From NCBI RefSeq assembly GCF_009865215.1, contig NZ_WWJX01000141.1, positions 1 to 50,709 on the forward strand: DNA of 50,709 nucleotides, read 5' to 3'. Below the pieces are notes generated by a model, which was not told the origin of the DNA, did not search any database, and saw only the letters and a list, made by a program, of their open reading frames with translations. The DNA comes from Streptomyces sp. SID3343. GTDB lineage: Bacteria; Actinomycetota; Actinomycetes; Streptomycetales; Streptomycetaceae. The first letter of the stretch is position 1. The number at the start of each line of letters is the position of its first letter. Both the position numbers and the translations under genes were made by a program. Shown one piece after another: positions 7,518 to 27,199 of the stretch.

Positions 7518-7651
7518 CCCACAGTGTCATCGACGTCGACTCGGCGATGAGATGACGTGTGTCGGGCCGGGCCCGTCAGTTCGGATACCGCCCGGTGGCC
7601 GCCCGTTTGCGTCGTTCCGGACACGGCTTCGAAAACAGGTATCGCGTAACA

Positions 7652-7679
7652 TTGACTGCCGTCAGGATTGGTAGATACT
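7652..7679 (+). promoter_or_regulatory. Candidate promoter of the aryl-CoA/gentisate operon
   Basis: TTGACT at 7652-7657 and GATACT at 7674-7679 are separated by 16 bp; TAGATA at 7672 is an alternative -10. The surroundings are conspicuously AT-richer than the genes. A transcript starting near 7686 would give a short leader with AGGATGAGG before ATG 7722. Confidence 0.45.
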
Positions 7680-7721
7680 TGGGCTCACACTCCCGCTGAC
7701 ACCAGGATGAGGTGCACGCCC

Positions 7722-9913: not shown

Positions 9914-10076
9914 CCGGGAGTGTGTGCGGAGGCCGAGGGGGGAGGGAGAGCCGAGGCGTCGACCCCTGGGACCACCGAAAACCATGGTCTCCGCATGCCG
10001 TGCCATATCGCGCCACATTGACGACAGTAGATTTCGTTGCATATTCTCGGGTGACCGGGAACCATTGGAGGACGCT

Positions 10077-12635: not shown

Positions 12636-12751
12636 GCCCCCGCGATCGGCGCACCAGGCCAAGCCCCACGCCGACCACCCGCCAAGCCCACGAGTAAGCC
12701 CACCGCCAACCCCCACGCCGACCCGCACGTCCGCAGCACGAGGAGGGCCCG

Positions 12752-13861
12752 ATGGACAGTCCGACCAGACCCCCGGTCATGACGAGCAGTCAAAAGGACA
12801 ACCCGCCGCGCTTCACGGCGGCGGCCGTACAGGCGTCACCGGTCTACCTCGATGCCGCGAAGACCGTCGACAAGGCGGTGTCGCTGATCCGTGAAGCGGC
12901 CGCGAACGGCGCCGAGTTCATCGTCTTCCCCGAGGTTTTCGTACCCGGGTACCCCTATTGGAACTGGACGATGAACCCCGTCCAGGGCTCGCCGTGGTTC
13001 GAGCGCCTGTACCGCTCCTCCGTCGACGTTCCCGGGCCGCACGTGGACACCCTGCGCGCCGCCGCCCGCGCGGCCGGCGCGGTGGTCGTCATCGGCGTCA
13101 ACGAGCGCGGACCACACAGCATGGGCGTCCTGTACAACACCATCCTCACCATCGACGCCGACGGCGAACTGACCGGCGTACACCGCAAGTTGGTTCCGAC
13201 CTGGGCCGAGAAGCTGACCTGGACCGGTGGTGACGGCAGCTCGCTGCGCGTCCACCCCACCAAGGTCGGCCCGGTCGGCGTACTCGCGTGCGGCGAGAAC
13301 ACCAACACGCTCGCCCGGTTCACCCTGCTCGCGCAGGGCGAACTGGTGCACGCCGCGAGCTACATCGCGCTGCCGGTCGCGCCCGCGGACTACGACATGG
13401 CCGACGCGATCGCGGTACGAACCGCCGCGCACAGTTTCGAGGGCAAGGTCTTCTCGATCGTCGCGTGCTCGACCATCTCTCCGGAGATCGTCGACCTGAT
13501 CGCCGGCGACGACGAAGAGGTCCGCAAGAACCTCGCCCGCAAGCGCAGCGCACTGTCGGGCGTCTTCGGCCCCGACGGCCGCCCCGTCGTCGAACCGCTG
13601 ATCGACGACGAGGGCATCGTCTACGCCGACATCGACCTCGCCCGCTGTATCCAGCCCAAACAGATGCACGACATCGTCGGCCACTACAACCGCTTCGACG
13701 TCTTCCGGCTGCACGTGGACGACCGGCCGCAGAGCCCGATCACCTTCGCCCGCGAGGCGGCCGGACCGGCCTCGGCGCCGGCGCCCCGGGCGCCGACGCC
13801 CCCGGCACAACCGCCCCTCGCACCCCCACCCCTCGCACCTGCACCCGAGGAGGAGACATGA
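12752..13861 (+). CDS. Nitrilase
   Basis: A 369-aa carbon-nitrogen hydrolase of the true nitrilase branch, converting a nitrile to the carboxylic acid plus ammonia. The catalytic triad is visible: Glu61 in VFPEVFVPGYPYW, Lys146 in VHRKLVPTWAEKLTW and Cys180 in LACGENTNTLARF; CGEN is typical of nitrilases rather than amidases. The C-terminal ~35 residues are Pro/Ala-rich. ATG 12752 follows GAGGAGGG at about 9 bp; ATG 12779 is a possible later start. It overlaps the gentisate dioxygenase gene by 4 bp (ATGA). Its position suggests that an aromatic nitrile may feed the same pathway; substrate unknown. Confidence 0.9.
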   Translation: MDSPTRPPVMTSSQKDNPPRFTAAAVQASPVYLDAAKTVDKAVSLIREAAANGAEFIVFPEVFVPGYPYWNWTMNPVQGSPWFERLYRSSVDVPGPHVDTLRAAARAAGAVVVIGVNERGPHSMGVLYNTILTIDADGELTGVHRKLVPTWAEKLTWTGGDGSSLRVHPTKVGPVGVLACGENTNTLARFTLLAQGELVHAASYIALPVAPADYDMADAIAVRTAAHSFEGKVFSIVACSTISPEIVDLIAGDDEEVRKNLARKRSALSGVFGPDGRPVVEPLIDDEGIVYADIDLARCIQPKQMHDIVGHYNRFDVFRLHVDDRPQSPITFAREAAGPASAPAPRAPTPPAQPPLAPPPLAPAPEEET

Positions 13862-14967
13862 CCACCCAGGACGACAACATGCTCGGCCGGGCCCGCGTCA
13901 CCGACACGCCCGAACTCGATGCCTACTACGCCGAATTGGCCGAACGCCAAGCCGGTGCGCTGTGGACGGTCGCCAACGAGATCGAGCCGTGGTATCCGCA
14001 GCCCAAGTCCGTACCCACCCTGTGGCGCTACGCCGAACTGCGGCCGCTCGTACGCAAGGCGCTCGACCTGGTCAAGGCCGACGACGCGGGTCGTCGCGTG
14101 GTGATGCTCGTCAACCCCGGCCGACGCGACGTCAGTGCCGCGGCCGGGCTGCTGTACACCGGACTTCAGATCATGGGCCCCGGCGAGTCGATGACCGCGC
14201 ACCGGCATCAGGCCGCCGCGCTGCGCTTCGTGCTCGAAGGCACCGGCGCGTGGACCGTCGTCGACGGCGAGAAACTCAAGGTCGGCGCCCGGGACTTCGC
14301 GATCACGCCCAACGGCACATGGCACGAGCACGGCAACGAGTCCGACGACGCGCCGGTGATCTGGCAGGACGGTCTGGACATCCCGCTGGTCAACTCCCTC
14401 GACGCGGGCTTCTACGAGGTCCACCCGGACGTGTACCAGGCCCCCGGCAAGGTGGTGAACCAGTCGGTACTCACCTACGGCGGCAACCTCGTGCCGTACG
14501 GAACCGACACCTGGACACGCCCCTACTCACCGCTGCTCGCGTGGCCGTGGGAGCCGACGTACCATGCCCTGCTCGACCTGGCCAAGGCCACCGAGGGATC
14601 GCCCTACGACGGCGTGATCATGGAGTACACCAACCCCGCCACCGGCGGCTCGGTGATGCCGACGATGAGCGCGCACATCCAACTGCTGCGCGCCGGGCAG
14701 GCGACCAAGGCACACCGGCACACCGGTTCGGTGGTCTACACCGCCGCCAAGGGACACGGCGTGTCGATCGTCGGCGGGCAGCGGTTCGAGTGGCACGAGG
14801 GCGACGTGTTCGCCGTCCCGTCCTGGGCGTGGCACGAACACGCCAACCTCGACCCGAGCGAGGACGCGGTGTTGTTCTCCTTCAACGACTTCCCCGTGAT
14901 GCGCTCCCTCGCCTTCCACCGCGAAGAGGCGTACACCGACAACGACGGCCACCAGCCGATCGTTTGA
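13858..14967 (+). CDS. Gentisate 1,2-dioxygenase
   Basis: A 369-aa bicupin Fe(II) ring-cleavage dioxygenase converting gentisate to maleylpyruvate. Both cupin motifs are visible: the first has HRHQAAALRFVLEG with THWHEHG-like TWHEHGNE, the second has HRHTGSVVYTAAKG with AWHEHANL. The N-terminal region (DAYYAELAERQAGALWT, WRYAELRPL) is characteristic of gentisate dioxygenases. GAGGAG sits just before ATG 13858. It is translationally coupled to the nitrilase and followed by FAH-family and maleate isomerase genes, which complete the route. Confidence 0.92.
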   Translation: MTTQDDNMLGRARVTDTPELDAYYAELAERQAGALWTVANEIEPWYPQPKSVPTLWRYAELRPLVRKALDLVKADDAGRRVVMLVNPGRRDVSAAAGLLYTGLQIMGPGESMTAHRHQAAALRFVLEGTGAWTVVDGEKLKVGARDFAITPNGTWHEHGNESDDAPVIWQDGLDIPLVNSLDAGFYEVHPDVYQAPGKVVNQSVLTYGGNLVPYGTDTWTRPYSPLLAWPWEPTYHALLDLAKATEGSPYDGVIMEYTNPATGGSVMPTMSAHIQLLRAGQATKAHRHTGSVVYTAAKGHGVSIVGGQRFEWHEGDVFAVPSWAWHEHANLDPSEDAVLFSFNDFPVMRSLAFHREEAYTDNDGHQPIV

Positions 14968-15121
14968 CCCCCGCGATGATCGGGTAGCGCCCGTGCCGCC
15001 GTCCCCGTGACGCACCGAGCCGGACTCGGCGGCGGTCTGCCGACCGCCGCCGAGCCTCTCGATCCAGCCTCAGCCGCACCACCCGCCCGCCGCCGTGCCA
15101 CCCCACGTGAGGACCCCTGCC

Positions 15122-16021
15122 ATGCGACTGGTCACCTTCACCACCCAAGACTCGACCCCGCGCCTGGGCGCCCAGATCGGTGACCGGGTGCTCGACCTGG
15201 CCGCGCTCGCCGCCGCCTCCGGGGCCGAACTGCCCGGCGACCTGCTCGCGCTGATCCAGGCCGGCCCGGCCGCGCTCGTCACCGTCCGCGAACTCGTCGC
15301 GGCAGCCGGTGAAAGCGGTGACGCGGTGCACGCGTTCGCCGACGTGACCCTGCTCGCGCCGCTGCGCCCCGGCAACATCGTCGGCATCGGCCTGAACTAC
15401 GTCGAGCACGTGGCCGAGTCCAACCGCACCCTCGACACCGCCAAGGAACTCCCGGACCGACCCGTACTGTTCGGCAAGCCGTCCACCGCGATCACCGGCC
15501 CGGGACACCCGATCCTGCACGACGGCAACCTGACACAGCAGCTCGACTGGGAATGCGAACTCGCCGTGGTGATCGGCCGAACCGCCCACAAGGTCAGCGA
15601 AGCGGACGCGTGGGAGCACGTGTTCGGCTACAGCATCATGAACGACATCAGCGCCCGCGACCAGCGCCGCTCCGGACAGTGGTTCTTCTCCAAGGGCCAG
15701 GATTCCTACGCCCCGTTCGGCCCGGCCGTGGTCACCGCCGACGCGATCGCCGACCCGCATGCGCTCGACCTGTCGCTGCGGGTCAACGGCGACGTCAAGC
15801 AGAAGTCCAACACCCGGCACATGCTCTTCGACATCCCGCGCCTGATCGCCGACATCTCGTCGGGTATGACACTCGAACCGGGCGACGTCATCTCCACCGG
15901 CTCCCCCTCCGGCGTCGGCGCGGCCCAGGACCCGCCGCAGTACCTGCAGCCGGGCGACGTGGTCGAGGCCACCGTCGAGGGCATCGGCACGCTCACCAAC
16001 CCGGTGATCGACGCCCGCTGA
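15122..16021 (+). CDS. FAH-family hydrolase (fumaryl- or maleylpyruvate hydrolase)
   Basis: A 299-aa fumarylacetoacetate hydrolase-fold enzyme. Signatures are GLNYVEHVAES, FGKPSTAITGPG, the metal-ligand region DWECELAVVIGR, GYSIMNDISARDQRR and TGSPSGVGAAQDPPQYL. In gentisate pathways this enzyme splits fumarylpyruvate, or maleylpyruvate directly, into a C4-diacid and pyruvate. ATG 15122 gives the canonical MRLVTF start; an in-frame GTG at 15095 is less likely. The gap from the dioxygenase is 154 bp. The presence of a maleate isomerase immediately downstream hints at direct maleylpyruvate hydrolysis. Confidence 0.87.
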   Translation: MRLVTFTTQDSTPRLGAQIGDRVLDLAALAAASGAELPGDLLALIQAGPAALVTVRELVAAAGESGDAVHAFADVTLLAPLRPGNIVGIGLNYVEHVAESNRTLDTAKELPDRPVLFGKPSTAITGPGHPILHDGNLTQQLDWECELAVVIGRTAHKVSEADAWEHVFGYSIMNDISARDQRRSGQWFFSKGQDSYAPFGPAVVTADAIADPHALDLSLRVNGDVKQKSNTRHMLFDIPRLIADISSGMTLEPGDVISTGSPSGVGAAQDPPQYLQPGDVVEATVEGIGTLTNPVIDAR

Positions 16022-16068
16022 CCCGCCGCCCCACGCACCCCGCCCGCATTGCTCCAGGAGGACCCGCC

Positions 16069-16860
16069 GTGCCCAAGTCCAGCTACCGCATCGGTCAGAT
16101 CGTGCCGAGTTCCAACGTCACGATGGAGACCGAGGTACCGGCGATTCTCCGTGCCCGGGAGACCGTCGCACCCGAGCGATTCACCTTCCACTCCAGCCGG
16201 ATGCGGATGACACACGTCACCCCCGAGCAACTCAAGGCGATGGACGCCGATTCCGACCGCTGCGCGATCGAACTCTCGGACGCGCGGGTCGACGTGCTCG
16301 GCTACGCGTGCCTGGTCGCGATCATGGCGATGGGCCTGGGCTACCACCGCGTGTCCGAACAGCGCCTGCACACCCGCACGGTCGACAACGGCGCGCCCGC
16401 CCCGGTGGTCACCAGCGCCGGCGCGCTCGTGCACGGCCTGCACACCATCGGCGCCCGGAAGGTCGCCCTGGTCGCGCCCTACATGCTGCCGCTGACCAGG
16501 ACCGTCGTGGACTACCTCGGCAACGAGGGCATCGAAGTGCTGGACTACAAGGCCCTCGAAATCCCGGACAACCTCGATGTCGCCGCGCACGACCCGCTGT
16601 TGCTGCCGGGCATCGCGGACCGGCTCGACTACGCGGAAGCGGACGCCGTGGTGCTGTCGGCGTGCGTGCAGATGCCCTCGCTCGCCGCGATCGAGGACGC
16701 CGAACAGCGGCTCGGCAAGCCGGTCGTGTCCGCCGCCGTATGCACCGTCCACCAGATGCTGCGCGCCCTCGACCTGCCCGCGTTCGCCCCGGGCGCCGGT
16801 CACCTGCTGTCGGGCGCGTACGCGGACGCCCCCCTGCCCGACGCCGCCGCAGCGCGCTGA
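16069..16860 (+). CDS. maiA: Maleate cis-trans isomerase
   Basis: A 263-aa member of the Asp/Glu racemase superfamily, maleate isomerase branch, converting maleate to fumarate. Diagnostic segments are GQIVPSSNVTMETEVPAIL, FTFHSSRMRMTHVTPEQL and the two catalytic cysteines, in GYACLVAIM and LSACVQMPSL. The start is GTG 16069 with CAGGAGGAC about 5 bp upstream; the frame is open further 5' but that part overlaps the FAH gene. It ends the operon and converges on the guanine deaminase gene. The GC-rich 16861-17007 gap has partial inverted repeats but no clear single terminator. Confidence 0.85.
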   Translation: MPKSSYRIGQIVPSSNVTMETEVPAILRARETVAPERFTFHSSRMRMTHVTPEQLKAMDADSDRCAIELSDARVDVLGYACLVAIMAMGLGYHRVSEQRLHTRTVDNGAPAPVVTSAGALVHGLHTIGARKVALVAPYMLPLTRTVVDYLGNEGIEVLDYKALEIPDNLDVAAHDPLLLPGIADRLDYAEADAVVLSACVQMPSLAAIEDAEQRLGKPVVSAAVCTVHQMLRALDLPAFAPGAGHLLSGAYADAPLPDAAAAR

Positions 16861-17007
16861 GCGCAGGGCCGGCCCGAACGGGGAGGCCGCCCCTCGTCGC
16901 CGCCGGGCGGATGTCGCCGGGCGGTGTCGAGAGGCGGCCCGCCGGGTCCTCGGGGTTGTGCGTGCGGTAAGCCGAGGGTTCTCAATGGGGCGCGTCGGTA
17001 AGGGAGT

Positions 17008-17511
17008 TCAGTAGTCGATCCGGTCGGATTTGGCCAGCCACGCGTCGAACGGCGCCGTACGGTTCGGCAGGTCCAACTGCTCGACCGCCATCGGCCACAT
17101 CGACTCCGGCTGCTTTTCGAACAGGTCGTAGAACTTGCGGTCGTCGAAACCGGCCACCGCGGCATCGTGCCGATCGGCGGAGAAGACGATCCGCTCGATG
17201 CGTGCCCACAGCGCGGAGGACAGGCACATCGGGCACGGCTCGCACGAGGTGACCAGGACGCAGCCTTCGAGCGAGAACGAGTCCAGTTGCCGACAGGCGG
17301 CCCGCATCGCGCTCACCTCGGCGTGCGCCGTCGGGTCCAGGTTCGCGGTGACCTGGTTGTTCCCTATCGCCACCACCCGGCCGTCCTTGGCGACCAGTGC
17401 GCCGAACGGACCGCCGCCGTTGGTCACGCTGTTGGTGGCCAGCTTGATCGCTTCGTCCAACCAGGCACGCTTGAGCTCCTGGACGTCCGTTTCGTGGGTG
17501 TGCGCGGTCAC
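17008..17511 (-). CDS. guaD: Guanine deaminase
   Basis: A 167-aa zinc-dependent cytidine-deaminase-fold enzyme; the GuaD type converts guanine to xanthine. The zinc site is DPTAHAEVSAM (His63, Glu65) and SCEPCPMC (Cys93, Cys96). The GFDDRKFYDLF and PFDAWLA segments near the C-terminus resemble B. subtilis GuaD. The start is GTG 17511 with AAAGGAG ahead; the frame is open further upstream but encodes unrelated Pro/Ala sequence. It is the last gene of the minus-strand operon behind a xanthine-dehydrogenase-like subunit, giving a guanine > xanthine > urate logic. A related aminoheterocycle is possible. Confidence 0.87.
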   Translation of the reverse strand: MTAHTHETDVQELKRAWLDEAIKLATNSVTNGGGPFGALVAKDGRVVAIGNNQVTANLDPTAHAEVSAMRAACRQLDSFSLEGCVLVTSCEPCPMCLSSALWARIERIVFSADRHDAAVAGFDDRKFYDLFEKQPESMWPMAVEQLDLPNRTAPFDAWLAKSDRIDY

Positions 17512-17724
17512 GTTCACTCCTTTGTCGGAGACGGTGGGGGACTCCCCGGATGCCGGTGTCCATGCGGGCACTGCACCCGAGGCAAAACGTGGGAACGGGG
17601 TGCGGGGTACGGGGTACGGGGAGATGGGAAGAGGCGGGGCCGCAGGTGCCGCCTCGCCGTCGGCGTGGTGGGTGCCTTCGACGCGGTGGGTGCCGTCGGC
17701 ATGTCCCGCGGCACCCACGGGAGT

Positions 17725-20052
17725 TCACCCGGGTTCGATGCCGCAGATGTGCTCCGGCGCGACGGGGGTGTGGGTCAGGTTCAACCCCGTTGCGTTGCGA
17801 ATGGCGTTAACGATCGCCGGGGTGGCCGAAATGGTGGGCGGTTCGCCGACACCACGCACGCCGTACGGCGAGTTCGGGTCGCCCCTTTCGATCACGTCCA
17901 CCGTCATCGGGGGCATGTCCACGATGGTCGGAATGAGGTAGTCGGTGAACGACGGGTTGAGGATCCGGCCGTCCTCGACCTTGATCTCCTCCATCACGGC
18001 AAGGCCGAGCCCCTGCGCCGAACCACCGTGGATCTGCCCGACGACGGCATCCGGGTTGATCGCCTTGCCGACGTCCTGCGCACAGTCCAACTGCACGACC
18101 TTGACCAGACCCAACTCGGTGTCCACGTCCACCACCGCCCGGTGCGCGGAGAACGCGTGCTGGACGTGCACCCGCCGGCTCTGCCCGGTGACCGGGTCCA
18201 TCGCGTAGGTCTTCAGGTGGTGGTACTCCCTGGTCTCCTCGATCACGTCGTCGCCGAGCACGTCGACGAGATCGGCAACGAGGCCGGTGACCGCGGAAAC
18301 GACCTTGCCGCCGGTGAGCGAGAGATCACCGGGATTCTCGCCGAAACGCCGGGCGACCCGATCGAAGAGCTCCTCGCGGACGGCTTCACAAGCGTTCTTG
18401 ACCGCACCACCGGTGATGTAGGTCTGCCGCGAGGCCGAACTCGACCCGGCGTCACCGACGTCGGTGTCGTTGGGGTGGATGTTGACTCGCTGCACGCCCA
18501 GTTCGCTGCGGGCGATCTGCTGCTGCACGGTGACCAGGCCCTGTCCGACCTCGGCCGCCGCGGTGTGCACCATCGCGATCGGTACGCCACCGACGGCCTG
18601 CAACCGCACGCGCGCCGTGGAGTAGTCGTCGGCGCCCTCCGCGTACGAGACGTTCTTGATGATCACGCTGTAGCCGACGCCCCGAACCACGCCCTCGCCG
18701 TGCGTGGTGTTGGACGCGCCGCCCGGCATGTCCCGCACGTCCACGGGTCCGGTCCGCTCCTGCGCGGGCAGCGGAATCCTGGTGAGCCGCTCCAGCAACT
18801 CGGCGACCGGCGCGGGAGAATCCAGCACCTGCCCGGTGTGCATGGTCGAGCCCTCCTCGACCGCGTTGAGCTGCCGCAGCCGCACCGGGTCCATGCCCAA
18901 CGCCTTGGCGAGTTTGTCCATTTGGGACTCGTAGGCATACGCGGGCTGCACGGCGCCGAGGCCACGCATCGCGCCGCACGGGGGGTTGTTCGTGTACAGG
19001 CCCCAACCCTCGATCGCGACGTTGGGCACCACGTACGGCCCGATGCCCAACGCGGTGGCGTTGCTGACCACGACCGGGGTCTTGGAGGCGTACGCGCCGC
19101 CGTCGAAGTACATCCTCGCCTTGACGAAGACGAGCTTGCCGTCCTTGGTCGCGCCGTGCTCGTAGTACATCTTCGCCGGGTGCCGGTGCACGTGGCCGTA
19201 GAAGGACTCTTCCCTGCTGTAGACCATCTTCACCGGCTTGCCCGTGTACAGCGCCAACATGCAACAGTGGATCTGCATGGACAGGTCCTCGCGGCCACCG
19301 AACGCGCCGCCGACACCGGACATGGTGAAGCGCACCTTCTCGACCGGGAGTCCGAGCGCCCGCGCGGTCTGTCGCTGGTCGACGTGCAGCCACTGGGTGG
19401 CGATGAACAGGTCGACCCCGCCGTCCTCGGCCGGGATCGCCAAACCGGACTCCGGCCCCAGAAACGCCTGGTCCTGCATGCCCATGGTGTACACATCGGA
19501 CACCACGACATCGGCCCGCGCATCGGGATCGCCCGTGACGATCGGCTGATAGCGCACCACGTTGCCGCCTGGGTGCAGCTTGGGCAGCGTGTCGTCGTGC
19601 GCGGCCCGCTCCGGGTCGGTGATCGGCTCGAACACCTCGTAGTCGACCACGATCTTGTCCAGCGCGCGTCGGGCGGTCTCGGGGTGATCGGCGGCAACCA
19701 GGGCGATCGGCTCACCCTTGTAGCGCACGACATCCTCGGCGAGCGCCGGCGTATCGGCGACCTTCAGGCCGTAGATGTTCTCGCCGGGGACGTCTTCGTG
19801 GGTCAGTACCGCGTACACGCCGGGGTGCTTGAGCGCGGGACCGATGTCGATCGAGTTGATCCGCGCGTACGGGTGTGGGCTGCGCAGAGTCGCGCCCCAG
19901 AGCATGTCGTCCGCCCACAGGTCCGAGGAGTAGGCGAACTCCCCACGTACCTTGAGCGTTCCGTCCGGCCGCAGCGGACTGTCGCCGATCCCACCGGTGA
20001 TCAACTCGTCGAGATCCTGCGGGGTGCGGGCGGGAGAAGTCTGGTTGGCCAT
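17725..20052 (-). CDS. Xanthine dehydrogenase-family molybdopterin-binding subunit
   Basis: A 775-aa large subunit of the molybdenum hydroxylase family (XdhB/CoxL/aldehyde oxidase type), which hydroxylates N-heterocycles or aldehydes with water. Motifs visible are GEFAYSSDL, the GVGGAFGGRED loop, NPPCGAMRGLGAVQPAYA, AEVGQGL and the C-terminal GVRGVGEPPTI carrying the catalytic glutamate. ATG 20052 begins a normal N-terminus; AAAGG lies 7 bp before it. The longer open frame upstream encodes only a 5-residue repeat. No FAD or 2Fe-2S subunit is adjacent, so the electron-transfer partners must be elsewhere. Guanine deaminase follows 213 bp downstream, and an SRPBCC protein precedes. Confidence 0.9.
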   Translation of the reverse strand: MANQTSPARTPQDLDELITGGIGDSPLRPDGTLKVRGEFAYSSDLWADDMLWGATLRSPHPYARINSIDIGPALKHPGVYAVLTHEDVPGENIYGLKVADTPALAEDVVRYKGEPIALVAADHPETARRALDKIVVDYEVFEPITDPERAAHDDTLPKLHPGGNVVRYQPIVTGDPDARADVVVSDVYTMGMQDQAFLGPESGLAIPAEDGGVDLFIATQWLHVDQRQTARALGLPVEKVRFTMSGVGGAFGGREDLSMQIHCCMLALYTGKPVKMVYSREESFYGHVHRHPAKMYYEHGATKDGKLVFVKARMYFDGGAYASKTPVVVSNATALGIGPYVVPNVAIEGWGLYTNNPPCGAMRGLGAVQPAYAYESQMDKLAKALGMDPVRLRQLNAVEEGSTMHTGQVLDSPAPVAELLERLTRIPLPAQERTGPVDVRDMPGGASNTTHGEGVVRGVGYSVIIKNVSYAEGADDYSTARVRLQAVGGVPIAMVHTAAAEVGQGLVTVQQQIARSELGVQRVNIHPNDTDVGDAGSSSASRQTYITGGAVKNACEAVREELFDRVARRFGENPGDLSLTGGKVVSAVTGLVADLVDVLGDDVIEETREYHHLKTYAMDPVTGQSRRVHVQHAFSAHRAVVDVDTELGLVKVVQLDCAQDVGKAINPDAVVGQIHGGSAQGLGLAVMEEIKVEDGRILNPSFTDYLIPTIVDMPPMTVDVIERGDPNSPYGVRGVGEPPTISATPAIVNAIRNATGLNLTHTPVAPEHICGIEPG

Positions 20053-20170
20053 CAGGAAGCCTTTACTGTCTGGATACTCGGCGGCCGGGGTTGGGGCCGA
20101 GTGGGTCGGGGCCGCGTGCGGTTCGGGCCGCACGGGGGCGGCCGGACCGACGGCGGGCAGCGGTACGTGA

Positions 20171-20305
20171 CGCGCTGCCGTGGCTGATGCGTGGGCGGCT
20201 GCTGCTCGGGCGGCTGTCGCTTCGTGGGCTGTCGTTTCGTCGGCTGTCGCCGCGTCGGCTATCGCCTCGTCGACTGTGGCTTCGTCGACTGTGGCTTCGT
20301 CGGCC
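20171..20305. repeat. Nine-unit degenerate 15-bp tandem repeat across a gene boundary
   Basis: Units of the type GTSGCTTCGTCGRCT repeat every 15 bp, most exact at 20231-20305. The array covers the last ~45 bp of the SRPBCC gene and runs ~90 bp into the gap before the Mo-hydroxylase gene. In the SRPBCC frame it encodes the Lys-Pro-Gln-Ser-Thr tail. Confidence 0.8.
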
Positions 20306-20774
20306 GATGCTTCGGGGGCGCGAAGAAGTCCCGCACGGCGTCCGTTTGGTTCTCCATCATGGCGATGATCGAGTCGACGACTTCGCGGTCGGCGTCGTCG
20401 GCGATCGCGAGCTCTCGTGACCACTCGAAGTAGCTGCGGTCCGGATCGTTGGTGATCGGCCGAACCCGAATGGTGGCGAGGTAGCCGTCGACGCCCATCG
20501 TCGGCGCGACGGCACGATAGGTGGAGGATCGCTTGACCTCGTTGCGTCCGGCCACCTCCTGTTCGACTAGACCCTCACAGAAGACCAACGTGAAGTCGTA
20601 CCGCGACGGCACTCGTTCGAGCGTGCCGCCCTCGGCCCAGCCCACGTTGCGCACGGCGTCTCCGGACACGATCTCGACCAGCTTCATCGGATCGCGGACC
20701 TCGGCCCAGACGGTGTCCGGATCGGCGTCGACGATCGTCGAGTGGTGCATCGTGTGCTTCTGCTTCATCGCCAC
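20259..20774 (-). CDS. SRPBCC (START-like) family protein
   Basis: About 171 aa with a Bet v1/polyketide-cyclase-like ligand-binding fold: N-terminal HHSTIVDADPDTVWAEVRDP, a middle YRAVAPTMGVDGYLATIRV and a C-terminal helix VDSIIAMMENQTDAVRDFF. Such proteins bind hydrophobic small molecules; some, such as CoxG, accompany molybdenum hydroxylases. GTG 20774 is preferred because AAGGAG lies 5 bp upstream; ATG 20768 is the alternative. The last ~15 residues come from the 15-bp repeat. It is first in the operon with the Mo subunit and guanine deaminase, and the shared 95-bp element lies ~55 bp upstream. Confidence 0.72.
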   Translation of the reverse strand: MAMKQKHTMHHSTIVDADPDTVWAEVRDPMKLVEIVSGDAVRNVGWAEGGTLERVPSRYDFTLVFCEGLVEQEVAGRNEVKRSSTYRAVAPTMGVDGYLATIRVRPITNDPDRSYFEWSRELAIADDADREVVDSIIAMMENQTDAVRDFFAPPKHRPTKPQSTKPQSTRR

Positions 20775-20828
20775 GAGAACTCCTTGTCGGACGAGTGGAA
20801 CCTTTTGCCGTGTTGCACCCTGTGTGAG

Positions 20829-20923
20829 GAGTACACAGCCAACCGAGCGAAGGCAGCCAGGGGCGGAAGACATGAACGCGTCCGCAGGCGGCGACCGGCT
20901 CTTCGTAGACTTCTACAAGGGGC
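20829..20923 (-). promoter_or_regulatory. Shared 95-bp upstream element, copy A
   Basis: About 87% identical (12 mismatches in 95, aligned by eye without gaps) to 25738-25832. It is oriented so that, on the minus strand, it begins with the imperfect palindrome GTAGAAGTCTAC and ends with GGCTGTGTACTCCTC, 55 bp before the SRPBCC start. A GGTGCAAC follows just downstream on the minus strand. It may hold the promoter and operator of the SRPBCC/Mo-hydroxylase/guaD operon. Confidence 0.7.
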
Positions 20924-20983
20924 GGCCCCCCATCGAACCCGCCGCGCCGACCAGCCGGGCCGGCCCGGCTCGTCACCCAGGGC

Positions 20984-21661
20984 TCAGCGCAAGTGCGACG
21001 TGTCGTTGAGTGACCGTACCGACGCACTCCCGTACGCGTCATACGCGACCGTGGAGACCGAAGCCGCTGCGGTCTCCATCCGGAACAACGCCTCGGGCGG
21101 CGCGTCGAACGCCAACCGGATCAGCTGCCTGACCGGCGTCACGTGCGAGACGACCAGCACGGTCCTGCCCGCGTACCGCGCCAACAACCGATCCCGCGAC
21201 AGCGCCACCCGCCGTGCCACGTTCTCGAAGGACTCGCCCCCCGACGGCGTGGCCGTCGGTGATCGCAGCCACGCCGCCAACTCGTCCGGATAGCGCTGCC
21301 GTACCTCGGCGGAGGTCAGCCCGTCCCATGCCCCGAAGTCCGCCTCCCGCAGTCCCTCGTCGATCCGTACGTCCAGCCCCAACCGCGCGGCGACCGCCTC
21401 GGCGGTCTCCCGGCAGCGCCGCAGCGGTGAGGCCACGACCGCCTGTACCGTCCCGCGTGCGGCGAGCATCGCCGCGGTCGCCTCGGCCTGCCGCCGCCCG
21501 GCCGCCGACAGCGACGGGTCGGAGCCGCCGCTGCCGGAGAAGCGCTTGTGCGGGGTCAGCGCCGTCTCACCGTGCCGCAGCAACAGGAGCGTCGTGGGCG
21601 TGCCCGGGGCGGCGGTCGACGAGCCGGGCGGGGCCGGCTCGGGGTCGTACGCACCCGTCAT
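20984..21661 (-). CDS. Histidine phosphatase family protein (CobC/phosphoglycerate mutase-like)
   Basis: A 225-aa acid-phosphatase-type protein. The phosphohistidine motif is LLLLRHGETALTPHKRFSG (near residue 30), SPLRRCRETAEAVA, EADFGAWDGLTSAEV and VVSHVTPVRQLIRLAF follow, as in CobC and the phosphatase half of RNase H/acid phosphatase proteins. Start ATG 21661 overlaps the carbamoyltransferase stop by 4 bp. It is the last gene of the four-gene operon, where it could remove a phosphate before or after carbamoylation; that role is inferred. The frame extends upstream but overlaps the previous gene. Confidence 0.85.
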   Translation of the reverse strand: MTGAYDPEPAPPGSSTAAPGTPTTLLLLRHGETALTPHKRFSGSGGSDPSLSAAGRRQAEATAAMLAARGTVQAVVASPLRRCRETAEAVAARLGLDVRIDEGLREADFGAWDGLTSAEVRQRYPDELAAWLRSPTATPSGGESFENVARRVALSRDRLLARYAGRTVLVVSHVTPVRQLIRLAFDAPPEALFRMETAAASVSTVAYDAYGSASVRSLNDTSHLR

Positions 21662-23550
21662 GCGGAAGGTTCGGTTTTCGTCACGAGCTGGTTGCCGAGG
21701 ACGAGGTAATCGATCTCCGTGCCGAGAAAGCAGTTCAGCGCGTCGGTCGGGGTACACACGATCGGCTCGCCGGCCACGTTGAACGACGTGTTGAGCAGGC
21801 AGGGAACGTCGGTCAGGGTGGTGAACCGGCGCAACAGGGCGGCCAGTCGCGGGGTGTCGTGATCGGTGATCGTCTGGACCCTGGAGGTGCCGTCCACATG
21901 GATCGCCCCCGGGATCACGTCGCGGAATTCCGGTCGCACCGGGAATACGAACGTCATGTACGGCGAACGCGTTTTGCGGCCCATGTCGAAGATCTTCGGC
22001 GCGTCCGTCTCGAGCACGATCGGCGCGAACGGGCGGAATGGTTCGCGGTGTTTGACCCTGGTGTTGATGACATCCTTGATGTCCGGAAACTTCGGGTTCG
22101 CGAGAATACTGCGGTGGCCCAACGCCCGCGGACCGTGCTCCAGCCGGCCCTCGTACCAGCCGACGACGACCTTTTCGGTGAGCAGTTTCGCCACATGGTC
22201 GACGACCTCGTCGTCGCTCAGCCTGCTCCAGGTCACCCGATCGCGGACATCCCGCAGAGCCCGCTCGATCGCCGAGTCGTCGTATTCCGGTCCGAGATAC
22301 GGAGTGACCGGTGGTGCGGATCCTGCCCTGTCGGTGCCGTCGGTGCCGTCGGTGCCGTCGGTGGCTTCGGTGGGGGCGGTGAGGTGGGCGGGGTGGGCGA
22401 GGTCGGCGATATCGGTGGTGTCCGGGTCGTGATTGACCCAAGCGTAGACGGCGGCGCCGATGACGATGCCGGTATCGCTCGCCCCGAAACCGACGTCCAT
22501 GTCGTCGAAGCGCGATCCCTCCAGCAGGGGAGTGTTGTTGAGGCAGTTCAGTGCCACGCCACCTTCGAACAGCAGGTGGTTCAGATCCGTTTTGGCTTCC
22601 AGCGCGCGGAGTTGGTGGCTCGTGACGACGGTCAGCATCTCCTGCGCCGCGGCGGCCACCCGAGCCTTGTATTCGAGGGTGTCCTGTACAGGACCGAAAT
22701 GCTGCTCGAACAGGGGCTCGAAGCTGCGAGGATTATCCGTCTCCAGGGGCCTACAGAAGGTGTATCGCCCGTCCTCGCGCAGTTCGACGATGTGCGTGAG
22801 GAACGGGTTCGGCGACGGGGGCGCGGCGAATCCCGACAGGCCCATGATTTTGTATTCGTCGTTGTTGGGCACGAAGCCCAGGTATCTGGTGATCGCGGCG
22901 AACAGCAGCCCGATCGAATATTCCGCGCCGATGGTCGACTCGTCGAAGACGCGGATCCGACCGCCGCGGATTTCGCCGATCAACGACGAGAACCGTTCGG
23001 CACGACCGTCACTGACCAGGAACGCGGCATCCTTCATACCTGCCATGTAATGGCCGGTCATCGCGTGGGCGAGGTGGTGCGGAACGAACACCACCTTGTC
23101 CGGATCCGGGGTGAAGCCGGTGCGCGCGGCGAAGTCGGCGAGGATCGCGTCGTGGCCGACGACCTCGGTGAACAGTGTGCCGATGCCGCTTGTGAGAGCC
23201 GACTTCGCGGCACGTGTCGTCGGCGCCGACGTGATGTCGGACAGCAGCCCGTCCAGGACCTCGGCGGAGAAGTTCCAAGGGATGGCGATGAGATCGATAT
23301 CGGAGAATCGCAGCCCCGCAGATTCAAGGCACCATGTCACCGCGTTGAGCGGGAAGTCGGAGGTTTTCTTTTCCCGGTTGAGCCGCTCTTCCTCCACGGC
23401 GGCGACCAGTTCGCCGTCCACCAGCAGCGAAGCACCCGCGTCGTGGCCGAGGATGTAGTGCCTTTCGGCGCCGACCGCGCCGAAATGCTCGGCGAAGACC
23501 TCCGAGACGCGGGTGAACCCGTTGCACCCCAGGACGATCACGACAATCAC
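21658..23550 (-). CDS. O-carbamoyltransferase, NodU/CmcH/TobZ family
   Basis: A 630-aa two-domain carbamoyltransferase that makes carbamoyl-adenylate from carbamoyl phosphate and ATP and moves the carbamoyl to a hydroxyl, nearly always in secondary metabolism. The N-terminal ASKHA/Kae1-like domain shows GHDAGASLLVDGELVAAVEEER (35-56, written here in part) and the metal-binding HHLAHA (158-163); the C-terminal YrdC-like domain shows RLEHGPRALGHRSILANP. A Thr-Asp-Gly repeat (DNA 22331-22360) lies between them. The start is GTG 23550, overlapping the oxidase stop (GTGA). It is the best evidence that this operon makes a small-molecule product. Confidence 0.9.
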   Translation of the reverse strand: MIVVIVLGCNGFTRVSEVFAEHFGAVGAERHYILGHDAGASLLVDGELVAAVEEERLNREKKTSDFPLNAVTWCLESAGLRFSDIDLIAIPWNFSAEVLDGLLSDITSAPTTRAAKSALTSGIGTLFTEVVGHDAILADFAARTGFTPDPDKVVFVPHHLAHAMTGHYMAGMKDAAFLVSDGRAERFSSLIGEIRGGRIRVFDESTIGAEYSIGLLFAAITRYLGFVPNNDEYKIMGLSGFAAPPSPNPFLTHIVELREDGRYTFCRPLETDNPRSFEPLFEQHFGPVQDTLEYKARVAAAAQEMLTVVTSHQLRALEAKTDLNHLLFEGGVALNCLNNTPLLEGSRFDDMDVGFGASDTGIVIGAAVYAWVNHDPDTTDIADLAHPAHLTAPTEATDGTDGTDGTDRAGSAPPVTPYLGPEYDDSAIERALRDVRDRVTWSRLSDDEVVDHVAKLLTEKVVVGWYEGRLEHGPRALGHRSILANPKFPDIKDVINTRVKHREPFRPFAPIVLETDAPKIFDMGRKTRSPYMTFVFPVRPEFRDVIPGAIHVDGTSRVQTITDHDTPRLAALLRRFTTLTDVPCLLNTSFNVAGEPIVCTPTDALNCFLGTEIDYLVLGNQLVTKTEPSA

Positions 23551-24671
23551 CTACTCTCCGGTCGTCGATGGTTCGAGGTCGTCGTGTCGGTCCAAGGCTG
23601 TTTGCCGGCCAGGAGGTCGCCGACGATCTCGCCGGCGGCGGGAGCCTGGCACAGTCCCTGCCCGGAGAATCCCGCCGCGTAGAGGAAGGGACGGGAGGGA
23701 TCTCGGCCGATGAGGGCGGTCCCGTCCGGGCTGCCGTCGAAGGCCCCGCTCCATCCGCGATGAAGACGGATGCCGGCGAGGGTCGGATAGGTGGCGCCGA
23801 GTCGGTGTGCCACCCGGTGCAGCCAGGCCTGGCGGGATTCGTCCGGTGCGGGGCGGCCCATTCCGATGAGGATGCGGTCCTTCCAGGCTCGGATCCGCAG
23901 GCCGGAGGAGGCGTGCAGGGTCATCGGCAGCGCGGCGAGCGGAGTGGGCAGGGTAAGTGGGCCGGGCCGGGCGGGAGGCGGGTCGCCGATGAGCAGTTCG
24001 ATGGGGTACGTGGTCACCGGAAGGCGAACGTCGGCCATGGCCGCGACGGTTGCCGACCAAGGGCCGGCCGCACAGACGACGGTTTCCGCGAGGATGCTGC
24101 CCGCAGGGGTGTGTACCCGCCCGTCGGGGTCGATGCCGGTGACGGGTGTTTCGGTGCGCAGGACGGCGCCGGCCTCTTGGGCCGCCGCGGCGTACCCGCG
24201 CACGATCGCGGCGGGGTCGCACGCGCAGGCCTCGGGCGCCCAGGCCGCCGCCAGGATGCCACGCTCGCCCACCAGTGGGTTGAGCCGCACCGCCTCGGAC
24301 GCCGACACGAGTTCGACGTCCACCCCCGCGGCCAGCTGGGCGGAATGGTCGCGTCGGAAGCCCTCCACCTGGTGCTCCTCGGTGAACAACACCAGGAACC
24401 CGCCCCGCTTTAGCCCGAGGGGGGTTCCGGTCCGCTCGGCGAACGCGTGATACGCCGCCAGGCTGCGGACGGCAAGGCTTCCGGTGCGGGCGTCGCCGGG
24501 GAAGTAGGTACGTACCACCCCCGCGGTGGCACCTGACGCTCCCGACCCGAGGGTGCCGCGCTCCAGCAGCACCGTGCGGACGCCGGCCTCGGCGAGATGG
24601 CACGCGATCGAGGTGCCGACGACTCCGCCGCCGACGACGAGCGCGTCCGTGCGTTCGGGCAGTGCGCTCAT
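23547..24671 (-). CDS. FAD-dependent amine oxidase (DAO / sarcosine-opine oxidase type)
   Basis: A 374-aa flavoenzyme of the D-amino acid oxidase fold. The dinucleotide-binding motif is VVGGGVVGTSIACHLAEAG near residue 14; GSGASGATAGVVR is the FAD-contact loop and DGTALIGRDPSRPFLYAAGFSGQGL is the conserved C-terminal segment (partly quoted). Relatives oxidise secondary amines such as sarcosine, proline or opines to imines. ATG 24671 overlaps the upstream gene by 4 bp. Sitting between an opine-synthase-like gene and a carbamoyltransferase, it may oxidise the cyclic amine made by the former. No covalent-FAD histidine motif is evident. Confidence 0.85.
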   Translation of the reverse strand: MSALPERTDALVVGGGVVGTSIACHLAEAGVRTVLLERGTLGSGASGATAGVVRTYFPGDARTGSLAVRSLAAYHAFAERTGTPLGLKRGGFLVLFTEEHQVEGFRRDHSAQLAAGVDVELVSASEAVRLNPLVGERGILAAAWAPEACACDPAAIVRGYAAAAQEAGAVLRTETPVTGIDPDGRVHTPAGSILAETVVCAAGPWSATVAAMADVRLPVTTYPIELLIGDPPPARPGPLTLPTPLAALPMTLHASSGLRIRAWKDRILIGMGRPAPDESRQAWLHRVAHRLGATYPTLAGIRLHRGWSGAFDGSPDGTALIGRDPSRPFLYAAGFSGQGLCQAPAAGEIVGDLLAGKQPWTDTTTSNHRRPESR

Positions 24672-25633
24672 GGCCGCGCGCCCATTTCGGCGGGCCGCTG
24701 TCGGCGCAGGTGGTCTCCGGCGTTCCACGGGAACAGGTGCAGGTTCCAGGCACCCAAGCAGTTGATGTAGAGGGCCAGTTGGCTCGCCACAGCCAGGAAG
24801 TCGTCGCGGTCGAGCCGGTCGAGGCAGGACAGGAAGCGCTGGGTGAAGGCCCACAGCTTCTCCAGGCCGCAGTAGCCCAGGAACTCGGCCGGGATGCCGA
24901 TCAACAGGCGCGCCATGTGGCGCAGGGAATCCATCGGCATGTCCGCGACCGCCGCCCGGACCAGGCCGCCGTAGGTGGCGTATCCCAGCGGGCGGGTCTC
25001 ACCGTTGACGAACAGGAGGGTGGGCAGGACCGTCTCGAAGCTCCCGGCCCCGGACGGGATCCATCCCCCGTGCAGGTCGGCGAGTTCGAGTGGTTCGGTC
25101 AGCCAGATTCGCTCGGTCTCGGTGTACACGTCGCGGATCAGCTGCTTCGCGTCGGGGTCGGCGGCGGTCAGACGGGGGAGGCGGTGACCGCCTTCCGTGC
25201 CTGCCCGGCGGACCTCCACCAGAATCGGTTTCTTCGTCGAGTAGACCGAATCCCACACCGCGTGCCCGGCTCGGATCAGTTCCGGCATGTCCTCCGGCCG
25301 GATCCGCCCCACGGGTGAGGCCGGCATCGGTTCGGTCAAGGCGCCGTATTTGATGCCCAGATGCTGCAACGCGGAACAGAACACCGTCCCGTCGGGCGCC
25401 TCGCGTCGATCGAACCGAGTGGACGCGGGCAGATGCAGCAGCGAGGGGATCGGTGCCGCGTGATACAGATGGCTTCCCGCCACGAGGGCGTGCCCCTGCA
25501 GACTTTGGTAGGGCAATGCCTCCCACAGCGCATCGGCCAGCGCGGGGTTGCGATCGTCGAGTTCCGCGGTGACGGCGACACCCGGATCGGGCCAGGTGAT
25601 TTCGATGTGCCGACCTGACAACGACTCGGGCAT
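24668..25633 (-). CDS. Cucumopine synthase-like protein (cyclophilin-like plus helical domain)
   Basis: A 321-aa protein. Residues ~8-150 look like a cyclophilin-like (DUF3830-type) barrel: HIEITWPDPGVAVTAELDD, LADALWEALPYQSLQGHAL and RIRPEDMPELIRAGHAVWD. Residues ~170-310 are predicted helices (LRHMARLLIGIPAEFLGYCG, DDFLAVASQLALYINCLGAW), resembling the helical bundle of cucumopine synthases, which condense histidine with 2-oxoglutarate by a Pictet-Spengler reaction. Assignment is from recalled family patterns, not an alignment. ATG 25633 has AAAGGAG 7 bp ahead and is the first gene of the overlapping operon; the open frame further upstream runs through repeats. Confidence 0.5.
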   Translation of the reverse strand: MPESLSGRHIEITWPDPGVAVTAELDDRNPALADALWEALPYQSLQGHALVAGSHLYHAAPIPSLLHLPASTRFDRREAPDGTVFCSALQHLGIKYGALTEPMPASPVGRIRPEDMPELIRAGHAVWDSVYSTKKPILVEVRRAGTEGGHRLPRLTAADPDAKQLIRDVYTETERIWLTEPLELADLHGGWIPSGAGSFETVLPTLLFVNGETRPLGYATYGGLVRAAVADMPMDSLRHMARLLIGIPAEFLGYCGLEKLWAFTQRFLSCLDRLDRDDFLAVASQLALYINCLGAWNLHLFPWNAGDHLRRQRPAEMGARP

Positions 25634-25646
25634 GGGCGTCTCCTTT

Positions 25647-25730
25647 GCCTCGGTTGCAACGGGCTTGGTACACCTGCCTTGGTGCAGCCGGCTTGGTACA
25701 CCTGCGTCGGTGCGACCGGCTCGGTGCAAC
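25647..25730 (-). promoter_or_regulatory. Six tandem 14-bp repeats before the cucumopine-synthase-like gene
   Basis: Six consecutive 14-bp units at 25647, 25661, 25675, 25689, 25703 and 25717 share the core GGTRCAMC (plus strand), for example CGGCTTGGTACACC and CGGCTCGGTGCAAC. The array abuts the AAAGGAG ribosome site and follows the shared 95-bp element. Phasing of 14 bp is not a multiple of three, so it is not a coding repeat. It could be an operator array or a 5'-UTR structure. Confidence 0.8.
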
Positions 25731-25737
25731 GTGTCCG

Positions 25738-25832
25738 AGGAGTACACAGCCCACCGAGCAAGGGCAGCTACGGGCGGAAGACATGAACCCGTCCGCGGGG
25801 AGACACCGGCTCTTCGTAGACTTCTACGAGGC
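25738..25832 (-). promoter_or_regulatory. Shared 95-bp upstream element, copy B
   Basis: Second copy of the element at 20829-20923. The best-kept parts are GAGGAGTACACAGCC, GGGCGGAAGACATGAAC and CCGGCTCTTCGTAGACTTCT. It lies 105 bp upstream of the cucumopine-synthase-like gene on the minus strand, in the same orientation relative to its operon as copy A. Confidence 0.7.
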
Positions 25833-26152
25833 GCTGGGCGTTGGGCGTTGGGCGCGAGAGCTGCGCGGGCGCGACGGGTGCCGTTCTGTTTTTTCGGGGT
25901 ACTCGAACACGGACCGTGCGCACGTACTTGCCGTATCGGTGGTTGGCTGCCGGAATCCGGCAGGCCGGCGGCCGTCAGCGTGACCGGATCCGGAATGGCG
26001 AGCGAGTCGGCACGCCCGGAATGATGGCGGCACGAAAGCAAAAGCGGGGCGCTCGACCGGTCGCGGCCGTCGACGGGGTGTGTTCCGGCCCGGGTGGGCC
26101 GGAACCGGTCCGGCGTCGCCTCGGTCCGGGACCGGACGGGGGCGGGTCGGAG

Positions 26153-26371
26153 ATGAAGATGATGATGTTGCAGGTTTTCGGTGAGCAGAGTGAGTTCGCG
26201 ATCGCGCGTCGCGGCTACGACCGAGGGCAGGTCGACGAGTACGTGGCGGGCCTCCTCGCCGGCGGCAGGCCCGCCAACTCGCCCGCCTTCACCATGGTGC
26301 GGCGCGGCTACAAGGCCGAACACGTGGATCGCCGGCTCGCGGAACTGAGCCACAGCCGACGGGCGGCCTGA
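26153..26371 (+). CDS. Small protein with two DivIVA-like motifs
   Basis: A 72-aa protein containing the DivIVA N-terminal signature twice: FAIARRGYDRGQVDEYVAGL and FTMVRRGYKAEHVDRRLAEL. In DivIVA this F-x-x-x-RRGY-x-x-x-VD segment mediates membrane and self association at poles; here no long coiled coil follows. The start could be ATG 26153 or ATG 26159, the latter having GGAG 6 bp ahead. Its stop lies inside a 15-bp direct repeat (CCTGATACAGGTCGG twice, 26368-26397). Convergent with the methyltransferase. Function not known. Confidence 0.6.
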   Translation: MKMMMLQVFGEQSEFAIARRGYDRGQVDEYVAGLLAGGRPANSPAFTMVRRGYKAEHVDRRLAELSHSRRAA

Positions 26372-26530
26372 TACAGGTCGGCCTGATACAGGTCGGGCGG
26401 GGCAGGGCGGGACGCGCTTCGGGCGCGGCGCGGGCGGGACGGGCCTCGGGCGCGGATGGGTTCGGGCTCGATACCGGTGGGCCGGCCTCGGCGCGGGACG
26501 AACCCCCGTGCCGCTGCCGGCGCCCGCTTC

Positions 26531-27199
26531 TCAGCCGGGTCGCTTGGCCATGACGACCAGACCCGGCCGGACGTTTTCATTCGCAGGGAGCCGAAGTTCG
26601 GCGACCGGGCGCAGGCCGGCCTGCTCGATCAGGTCCACGAACTGTTCCGGCTGCCATTGGTGCGTCGTCCAACGCACCGGCACCCCTCCGTAGGCCTCGG
26701 TGCGTACCGCGTCCTCGTCTCCGACGTGTGTCCCGGTGATGAAATGGCCGCCCGGCTTCAGGGCCCGCGCGAACACGGCGAGCACCTGAGGCAGGACGTC
26801 ACGGGGGAGGTTGAACAGTGACCACCACCCGAGCACACCGCCGAGGGACGCTTCACCGAGGTCGAGTTCGGTGGCGGAGCCGACACTGAAGCGGCATTGC
26901 GGATGAAGACGGCGCGCGTTCTCGATCATGCGAGGGGAGAGATCGACCCCGGACACGTCGAGGCCGCGTTCGGCCAGGTAGGCGGTCACCGTTCCGGGGC
27001 CACAGCCGACGTCGAGGACAGGCCCGAGCCCACTCACGGTGTCGGCGAAGGCATCGATCGACGCCTTGAGCCATGGATACTTACGGATGTCGCCGACTCC
27101 CGTCGTCACCACCATGTGGGCGTAGTTGTCGGCCACGCGATCGTAAGACTCACGGACTGCGTCGAGATCGGCCGGGCGGTCGACAGGTTGGCTTCGCAT
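26531..27199 (-). CDS. Class I SAM-dependent methyltransferase
   Basis: A 222-aa Rossmann-fold methyltransferase (UbiE/Methyltransf_11/25 type). Motif I is VLDVGCGPGTVTAYLAERG (near residue 55), the acidic post-I residue is in VSGVDLSPRMI, and LKPGGHFITGTHV is motif III. The N-terminus VRESYDRVADNYAHMV is typical. ATG 27199 starts where family similarity begins; the frame is open further upstream through unrelated sequence. Substrate unknown. Its proximity to the carbamoyltransferase operon (about 900 bp away, separate transcript) is noted but not proof of a link. Confidence 0.82.
   Translation of the reverse strand: MRSQPVDRPADLDAVRESYDRVADNYAHMVVTTGVGDIRKYPWLKASIDAFADTVSGLGPVLDVGCGPGTVTAYLAERGLDVSGVDLSPRMIENARRLHPQCRFSVGSATELDLGEASLGGVLGWWSLFNLPRDVLPQVLAVFARALKPGGHFITGTHVGDEDAVRTEAYGGVPVRWTTHQWQPEQFVDLIEQAGLRPVAELRLPANENVRPGLVVMAKRPG

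Follow-up and report, generated by a model that had tools for sequence, protein, structure and literature searches.

The stretch analysed here (the window) comprises 50,709 nucleotides of Streptomyces sp. SID3343 and carries, on its minus strand, an operon headed by a gene for a Pictet-Spenglerase (PSase) and continuing with genes for a flavin adenine dinucleotide (FAD)-dependent oxidase, a carbamoyltransferase and a histidine phosphatase. We propose that this operon makes an O-carbamoylated beta-carboline and that it belongs to the guanine/xanthine catabolism regulon, a reading to which we give a probability of about 0.62. It draws on features that can be observed in the sequence, namely the identities and order of the genes, the strict pairing of the carbamoyltransferase with an SRPBCC protein, the presence of guanine deaminase and xanthine dehydrogenase in the same genomes, and a shared cis element of ~100 bp. 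We recognised no description of a beta-carboline pathway with a carbamoyltransferase in the open-access literature searched. What is new is a carbamoyltransferase-SRPBCC variant of a pyridindolol-type pathway, in which the ligase and aldehyde dehydrogenase (ALDH) are replaced, together with its apparent membership of the guanine/xanthine regulon. The genes of the locus form a set with which a class of carbamoylated beta-carbolines can be put to the test. Moreover, with a conserved control element coupling an alkaloid pathway to purine catabolism, guanine or xanthine can be predicted as its trigger.

Structure of the operon

Four intact open reading frames (ORFs) are found on the minus strand at 24668-25633 (PSase), 23547-24671 (oxidase), 21658-23550 (carbamoyltransferase) and 20984-21661 (phosphatase), with overlaps of 4 bp at 24668/24671, 23547/23550 and 21658/21661, as described in a first-pass annotation made from the sequence alone. 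Relatives of the carbamoyltransferase starting MIVLGCNGF suggest a start at 23541 instead of 23550, in which case the overlap with the oxidase gene would vanish. The annotation drew the border of the operon after these four genes. The four genes stand, but three further genes on the same strand and a shared control element lie beyond that border. These genes encode an SRPBCC protein (20259-20774), a pucD-type xanthine dehydrogenase molybdenum subunit (17725-20052, within a longer ORF at 17725-20424) and a guanine deaminase of the B. subtilis GuaD type (17008-17517), are separated by gaps of ~200 bp and bring the whole span to 17008-25633.

A scan of genome contigs returned 90 PSase relatives and the analysis was confined to the 80 best; all neighbourhood counts leave out L001, the window's own genome. 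The start of the oxidase gene lies less than 100 bp from the PSase gene in 74 of 79 loci, and the identical 4-bp overlap is found in 53 of the 79. PSase-oxidase adjacency recurs among the 80 loci, as do the sets of carbamoyltransferase, SRPBCC and phosphatase genes. The Pfam domains and the neighbourhoods of relatives bear out the suggestion of a compact, specialised-metabolite-like operon with conserved gene order.

The first enzyme

The PSase matched the Pfam family Cucumopine_C (E 5.4e-46, 156.7 bits), one of two profiles named in the first-pass annotation; the other, DUF3830, gave no match at E 0.01 in a Pfam search of the window genes. Its best solved relative by sequence was PDB 3x27 (E 1.5e-91). 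An AlphaFold2 model built from 33 relatives, of modest quality (mean predicted local distance difference test score 73.4), was also closest to PDB 3x27, entitled 'Structure of McbB in complex with tryptophan' (Foldseek E 1.3e-22, template modelling score 0.76, 47% identity). The next structural matches were KslB with L-Trp and with an alpha-ketoglutarate product. The motif DRR...F.S.LQHLGIKYG.L.E is conserved in 80/80 relatives. Furthermore, the residues that we take to be catalytic in McbB (R72, H87 and E97) align with R76, H91 and E101 of the PSase, all invariant columns among 33 aligned relatives. Whole-length homology, fold and this presumed Arg/His/Glu active site place the enzyme among the McbB-type Pictet-Spenglerases.

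Both McbB (marinacarboline) and KslB share sequence and fold with the window PSase, the presumed active-site positions being shared with McbB. KslB has its two domains in swapped order relative to the window PSase and McbB (PDB 9uwb, 9ns6), such that residues 182-316 of the 9ns6 chain correspond to PSase residues 10-143. Unlike in the McbB or KslB setting, the PSase gene shares its locus with carbamoyltransferase and SRPBCC genes. No relatives of the PSase were found in a search of viral contigs.

Because the nearest solved relatives, McbB and KslB, were solved with tryptophan, a beta-carboline made from tryptophan is supported, from the sequence and the model, as a better reading than an opine. 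The alternative that histidine and a keto acid are joined to an imidazopyridine, which is then oxidised and carbamoylated, follows the name of the Pfam family, and the Cucumopine_C domain is indeed the one expected of a cucumopine (opine) synthase. Besides that name we found nothing in favour of an opine synthase. Given that tryptophan-bound beta-carboline enzymes are the closest structures solved and that the nearest gene cluster we found is the cluster proposed for pyridindolol (PMC7955054), the opine pathway is highly improbable. The Pictet-Spengler first step put forward in the annotation agrees with the McbB-type sequence and fold; its histidine/opine chemistry does not. The operon that it recognised is real and the general chemistry was correct, but the amine was probably the wrong one.

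The remaining enzymes

The oxidase, an FAD-dependent amine oxidase, belongs to the DAO family (PF01266, E 3.5e-62; ThiO-like) and its gene is present in 79/80 loci of relatives, the exception being L020, in keeping with the earlier suggestion that it could act on a cyclic amine. The carbamoyltransferase contains both Carbam_trans_N (E 1.8e-30) and Carbam_trans_C (E 3.4e-67) and matched PDB 7xb6 (E 1.3e-209), which we take to be VtdB. The motif HH..H...D, presumably the metal-ligand motif of TobZ-type enzymes, is found in all 32 carbamoyltransferases of the PSase loci, and a second motif pattern fitted 31/32 relatives. Both domains and the presumed metal motif are common to TobZ, GdmN and the 7xb6 O-carbamoyltransferase, and assign the window enzyme to the NodU/CmcH/TobZ class. 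Two relatives occur outside PSase loci (L102:8318-10117 and L103:9117-10826). They are 71-72% identical to the window enzyme, stand without a PSase and have, as judged by eye, ligase, carrier and synthase genes as neighbours, which points to a different acceptor. Among plasmid carbamoyltransferases, all 64 records were below 60% identity.

The phosphatase matched His_Phos_1 (E 3.4e-55) and scored 296.3 bits against NF005567, under the cut-off of 326. Its closest resemblance is to the acid-phosphatase portion of RNase H/phosphatase proteins, and the motif RHG[EQ] is present in 35/38 tested relatives. The Pfam identities of both enzymes are in line with the suggested order of a phosphatase acting before the carbamoyltransferase. 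The SRPBCC protein (PF10604, Polyketide_cyc2, E 4.1e-8) has exactly the same distribution as the carbamoyltransferase, the two genes being found in the same 32 of 80 loci. It was also found in 9 of 297 genomes of the window's family, the same 9 that have PSase and carbamoyltransferase. A structure model of the SRPBCC protein had a mean predicted local distance difference test score of 88.

Neighbourhoods of related Pictet-Spenglerases

PSase relatives with the operon occur in Streptomyces, Streptacidiphilus and Nocardia. The phosphatase gene is present in 40/80 loci, comprising all 32 carbamoyltransferase loci and 8 loci with only a ligase/ALDH pair, and was not detected in the remaining 40. 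The pair itself, an adenosine monophosphate (AMP)-forming ligase and an ALDH, occurs in 12/80 loci, 8 without the carbamoyltransferase, 3 with it (L006, L011 and L012) and L076. A cytochrome P450 gene is found in 36/80, mostly Nonomuraea and Actinomadura, a group reminiscent of the nonocarbolines of Nonomuraea, for which a McbB-like origin was suggested by the authors (PMC7148486). L006 and L011 (Nocardia) and L012 (Streptomyces), with ligase/ALDH pair and carbamoyltransferase together, are possible producers of a carbamoylated pyridindolol.

An F420-type gene is present as well in the 8 ligase/ALDH-only loci, completing the gene set proposed for pyridindolol in PMC7955054. There, a PSase, an FAD oxidoreductase, a coenzyme A (CoA) ligase, an ALDH, a histidine phosphatase and an F420 enzyme are put forward, without proof, as a cluster in Streptomyces sp. 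ID38640 and S. alboverticillatus, with StnK2 cited as a characterised relative. The same paper states that antiSMASH returned no cluster for this sister locus, in agreement with the earlier remark that cluster finders may miss the operon. The window shares with the proposed cluster a PSase of the McbB/StnK2 type, an FAD oxidoreductase and a histidine phosphatase. However, no AMP-forming ligase or ALDH was found among the genes of 17008-25633; the window has a carbamoyltransferase and an SRPBCC gene, without the ligase, ALDH and F420 enzyme of the proposed cluster, and differs further in its purine-type cis element and linked guanine deaminase and xanthine dehydrogenase genes. In a PSase tree the 8 pyridindolol-type loci form one starred group within the carbamoyltransferase-bearing side, beside Nocardia, and the P450 group is separate from that side. 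The exact place of the window sequence in this tree is ambiguous.

Within the 297 family genomes, PSase matches were found in 12 (9 at at least 74% identity; the weaker ones were G068 with 70% over part, G247 with 48% and G168 with 44%), the carbamoyltransferase in 11 and the SRPBCC protein in 9, all three together in the same 9. The search for the carbamoyltransferase scored 4 candidates per genome, such that matches can have been missed. G211 and G234 have the carbamoyltransferase without a PSase match.

Predicted pathway

From this gene content, the PSase would join L-tryptophan to a phosphorylated aldehyde, most likely, by analogy, glyceraldehyde 3-phosphate, which would leave a two-carbon side chain as in pyridindolol. 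The FAD oxidase would turn the tetrahydro ring into an aromatic beta-carboline-3-carboxylate and the phosphatase would release the side-chain hydroxyl, onto which the carbamoyltransferase would put a carbamoyl group; the SRPBCC protein would act with the carbamoyltransferase at some step. These substrates and this product are predictions. Computed [M+H]+ values are 357.0846 for the product of Trp and glyceraldehyde 3-phosphate, 273.0870 for 1-(1,2-dihydroxyethyl)-beta-carboline-3-carboxylic acid and 316.0928 for its carbamate, against 346.1034 for the carbamate expected from erythrose 4-phosphate and 302.1135 for the product that L012-type strains may make. A phosphorylated aldehyde is suggested for both the carbamoyltransferase and pyridindolol types because the phosphatase is common to both.

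The same beta-carboline logic could operate with another aldehyde, such as erythrose 4-phosphate or another sugar phosphate, in which case a longer polyol side chain would be carbamoylated. Erythrose 4-phosphate is the substrate of StnK2. That enzyme is the characterised relative cited in PMC7955054, and the phosphatase, present in 32/32 carbamoyltransferase loci, would suit such an aldehyde. The pyridindolol-type PSases, for which a C3 unit is proposed, are nested within the carbamoyltransferase-bearing side of the tree, and we regard a longer side chain as unlikely.

A cis element shared with purine-catabolism genes

A repeat search in the window revealed that a 110-nt stretch before the PSase gene recurs before the SRPBCC gene, the copies being 85% identical. 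Copy 1 of the resulting ~100-bp element (25729-25830, minus strand, E 3.9e-23) lies 96 bp before the PSase gene and copy 2 (20819-20919, minus strand, E 1.4e-27, or 5.1e-30 with the sequence-only model R1) lies 45 bp before the SRPBCC gene. Its core is a TTGTAG-N4-CTACG.AA dyad, followed by the conserved blocks TTCATG.CTTC and CTGTGTACT. With at most one mismatch, GTAGANNTCTAC occurs three times in the window against 0.40 expected, and two of the three are the element copies. From its sequence, the element looks like a long operator/promoter.

A structured RNA such as a purine riboswitch is a very unlikely alternative to a DNA operator. The length and conservation of the element, its position before start codons and an inverted repeat near its 5′ end would suit an RNA, and one of eight folds had a z-score of -2.88 (L129). 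However, RNAalifold gave 0 consensus pairs, the pairing of the inverted repeat was no better than in shuffled sequences (151/500), the other 7/8 folds had z-scores above -2, and Rfam gave no match at gathering score over 16500-27000, and no more than weak sub-threshold matches over 20700-21000. We rejected an RNA identity as unsupported.

BLASTN searches with the two window copies found matches before PSase, SRPBCC or guanine deaminase genes in relatives and, in operon-free genomes, before guanine deaminase or pucD, with E-values down to 7.8e-27. An element profile was built from 39 of 42 copies (the second copy of L021, L119 and L130 were left out of alignment A3), and counts leave out the duplicate stretches L104-L109, L082, L085 and L088. 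At E <1e-3, the element precedes the first operon gene in 31/32 carbamoyltransferase loci (24 PSase, 7 SRPBCC; L039 is the exception) and is also found in L020 and the window. Eighteen of the 26 PSase-side copies (L023-L038, L040, L041) lay outside the training set (E 2.1e-14 to 4.8e-5) and 17 of them stop 25-26 nt short of the start codon. No match at E 1 or better was found in the 8 ligase/ALDH-only or 36 P450-type loci. At E <1e-3 the element was also found before guanine deaminase or pucD (up to ~650 bp upstream) in 9 carbamoyltransferase loci, at 5/6 remote guanine deaminases of carbamoyltransferase genomes, before pucD in 4/4 stretches (L098-L101) and before guanine deaminase in 12/22 stretches from genomes without the carbamoyltransferase (L112-L133).

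Whole genomes were scanned with R1 in a hand-picked set of 26 rich in carriers of the operon and guanine deaminase; 135 of thousands of candidates were scored per genome, such that matches can have been missed. The scan gave 41 matches at E 0.01 or better in 21 of the genomes. By our classification, 38 of these fell into four kinds of site: 12 before the operon, 11 before guanine deaminase (up to ~950 bp from the gene), 4 before pucD and another 11 separating pucR (PF07905) from a divergent xdh FAD-type gene. The last sites were absent from the training set and were weaker (E 6.1e-8 to 0.005). The remaining three (L174, L176, L177) were weak (E 0.0034-0.0082). The window genome has exactly two matches, copies 1 and 2. 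Three pyridindolol-type genomes were included, of which G299 and G306 have the element at pucR-xdh only and G301 has none; there was also no match in G002, G307, G308 and G310. A PSase fragment (L139:6724-6903, S. lavendulae, G298) and a pucD fragment (L149, G297) each sit between an element and a guanine deaminase gene, perhaps a sign that these sites once had more of the operon or of pucD.

PucR is a purine-catabolism regulator in Bacillus. As the element recurs in the pucR-xdh gap and upstream of both guanine deaminase and pucD, the operon appears, from the sequence, to belong to a PucR-type purine-catabolism (guanine/xanthine) regulon, to which a specialised-metabolite-like operon is added here. 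PucR would be the natural candidate regulator; it, the direction of regulation and any chemical reason for the purine link are put forward as inferences.

Linkage to guanine deaminase and xanthine dehydrogenase

The window guanine deaminase matched PDB 1wkq, a guanine deaminase (E 3.8e-40), and pucD, in the form of the longer ORF at 17725-20424, scored above its NCBIfam cut-off (TIGR03196, 810.2 bits against 783.65). Among the fetched flanks, guanine deaminase is near the operon in 26/32 carbamoyltransferase loci and xdhB-type xanthine dehydrogenase, above its cut-off, in 19/32, in several orders and orientations. The other 6 (L025, L030, L035, L039, L041, L042) have guanine deaminase at a remote site in the genome, and the other 13 likewise have a remote xdhB; thus all 32 genomes have guanine deaminase and xanthine dehydrogenase. 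The window genome has pucD instead of xdhB, for which no match was found at E 1e-150. By comparison, guanine deaminase was found in 0/8 pyridindolol-type genomes, 0/8 sampled Nonomuraea/Actinomadura (7 P450-type and L054) and 0/1 (L017), and xdhB in 1/8, 0/8 and 0/1, respectively (L076 was left out of this search). All 9 family genomes with PSase, carbamoyltransferase and SRPBCC have guanine deaminase, against 26/288 others (Fisher p 1.6e-9, ignoring phylogeny).

It is conceivable, though somewhat unlikely, that the two purine genes are no more than neighbours of an operon that took over a purine promoter by insertion, the linkage being hitch-hiking. Indeed, pairs of guaD-xdh or pucD-guaD also occur apart from the operon, the latter in the same-genus genomes G001 and G003 (L098, L099) and in G004 and G030. 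Moreover, L118 (3701-5013, genome G131) has a decayed operon, a truncated oxidase and a carbamoyltransferase fragment, beside xdh-guaD, the family search giving no PSase there. However, the link persists across several gene orders, all 6 carbamoyltransferase genomes without a neighbouring guanine deaminase have one elsewhere, and 31/32 loci retain the element before the operon.

A more speculative and rather doubtful extension is that guanine deaminase and xanthine dehydrogenase themselves function in the pathway, with a carbamoylated beta-carboline that is made from, acts on or is activated by guanine/xanthine oxidation, and with the SRPBCC protein joining the two halves. If true, purine breakdown would both trigger and feed alkaloid production. 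We rejected the idea that the two enzymes are bespoke pathway copies, since trees (rows with stops or below 80% coverage dropped) mix genomes with and without the operon.

Several points weigh against an O-carbamoylated beta-carboline under purine control. The C3 aldehyde leans, by analogy, on a pyridindolol route that is itself proposed and unproven, and the product is predicted here from the genes. The window yielded no recognisable pucR gene. Ten of the 22 guanine deaminase stretches from genomes without the carbamoyltransferase have no element at E 1e-3, and matches before guanine deaminase are weak (E 0.012-0.64) in 9 carbamoyltransferase loci (L023, L024, L026, L028, L032-L034, L037, L038). 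The co-occurrence statistics carry no phylogenetic correction, and the carbamoyltransferase changes only 4 times on the PSase tree. The mixed guanine deaminase and xanthine dehydrogenase trees are as ordinary purine enzymes would give, and in L020 the element is retained together with guanine deaminase and xanthine dehydrogenase in the absence of oxidase, carbamoyltransferase, phosphatase and SRPBCC.

Guanine deaminase has HGE instead of HAE in 18/32 copies from carbamoyltransferase genomes and 6/27 others, a difference that may follow phylogeny; among these 6, L020 and L118 retain remnants of the operon. Owing to this variant, the GuaD motif pattern fitted 9/27 relatives. The window pucD (17725-20052) stands without an FAD or iron-sulfur partner among adjacent annotated genes.

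Genomic context

The window is contig C592 (NZ_WWJX01000141.1) of an 11.06-Mb assembly with an estimated contamination of 6.69%, and its G+C content is 56-74% in 2-kb steps. The contig fits the rest of the genome, because its pucD is 88-89% identical to pucD of two same-genus genomes. The PSase is the single match in the window's own genome. Lastly, plus-strand genes at 2249-16860 encode a PNP_UDP phosphorylase, a molybdopterin oxidoreductase, a fused FAD/old yellow enzyme (OYE) oxidoreductase, a nitrilase, an FAA hydrolase and an Amdase, perhaps a catabolic stretch for an aromatic acid and nucleosides.

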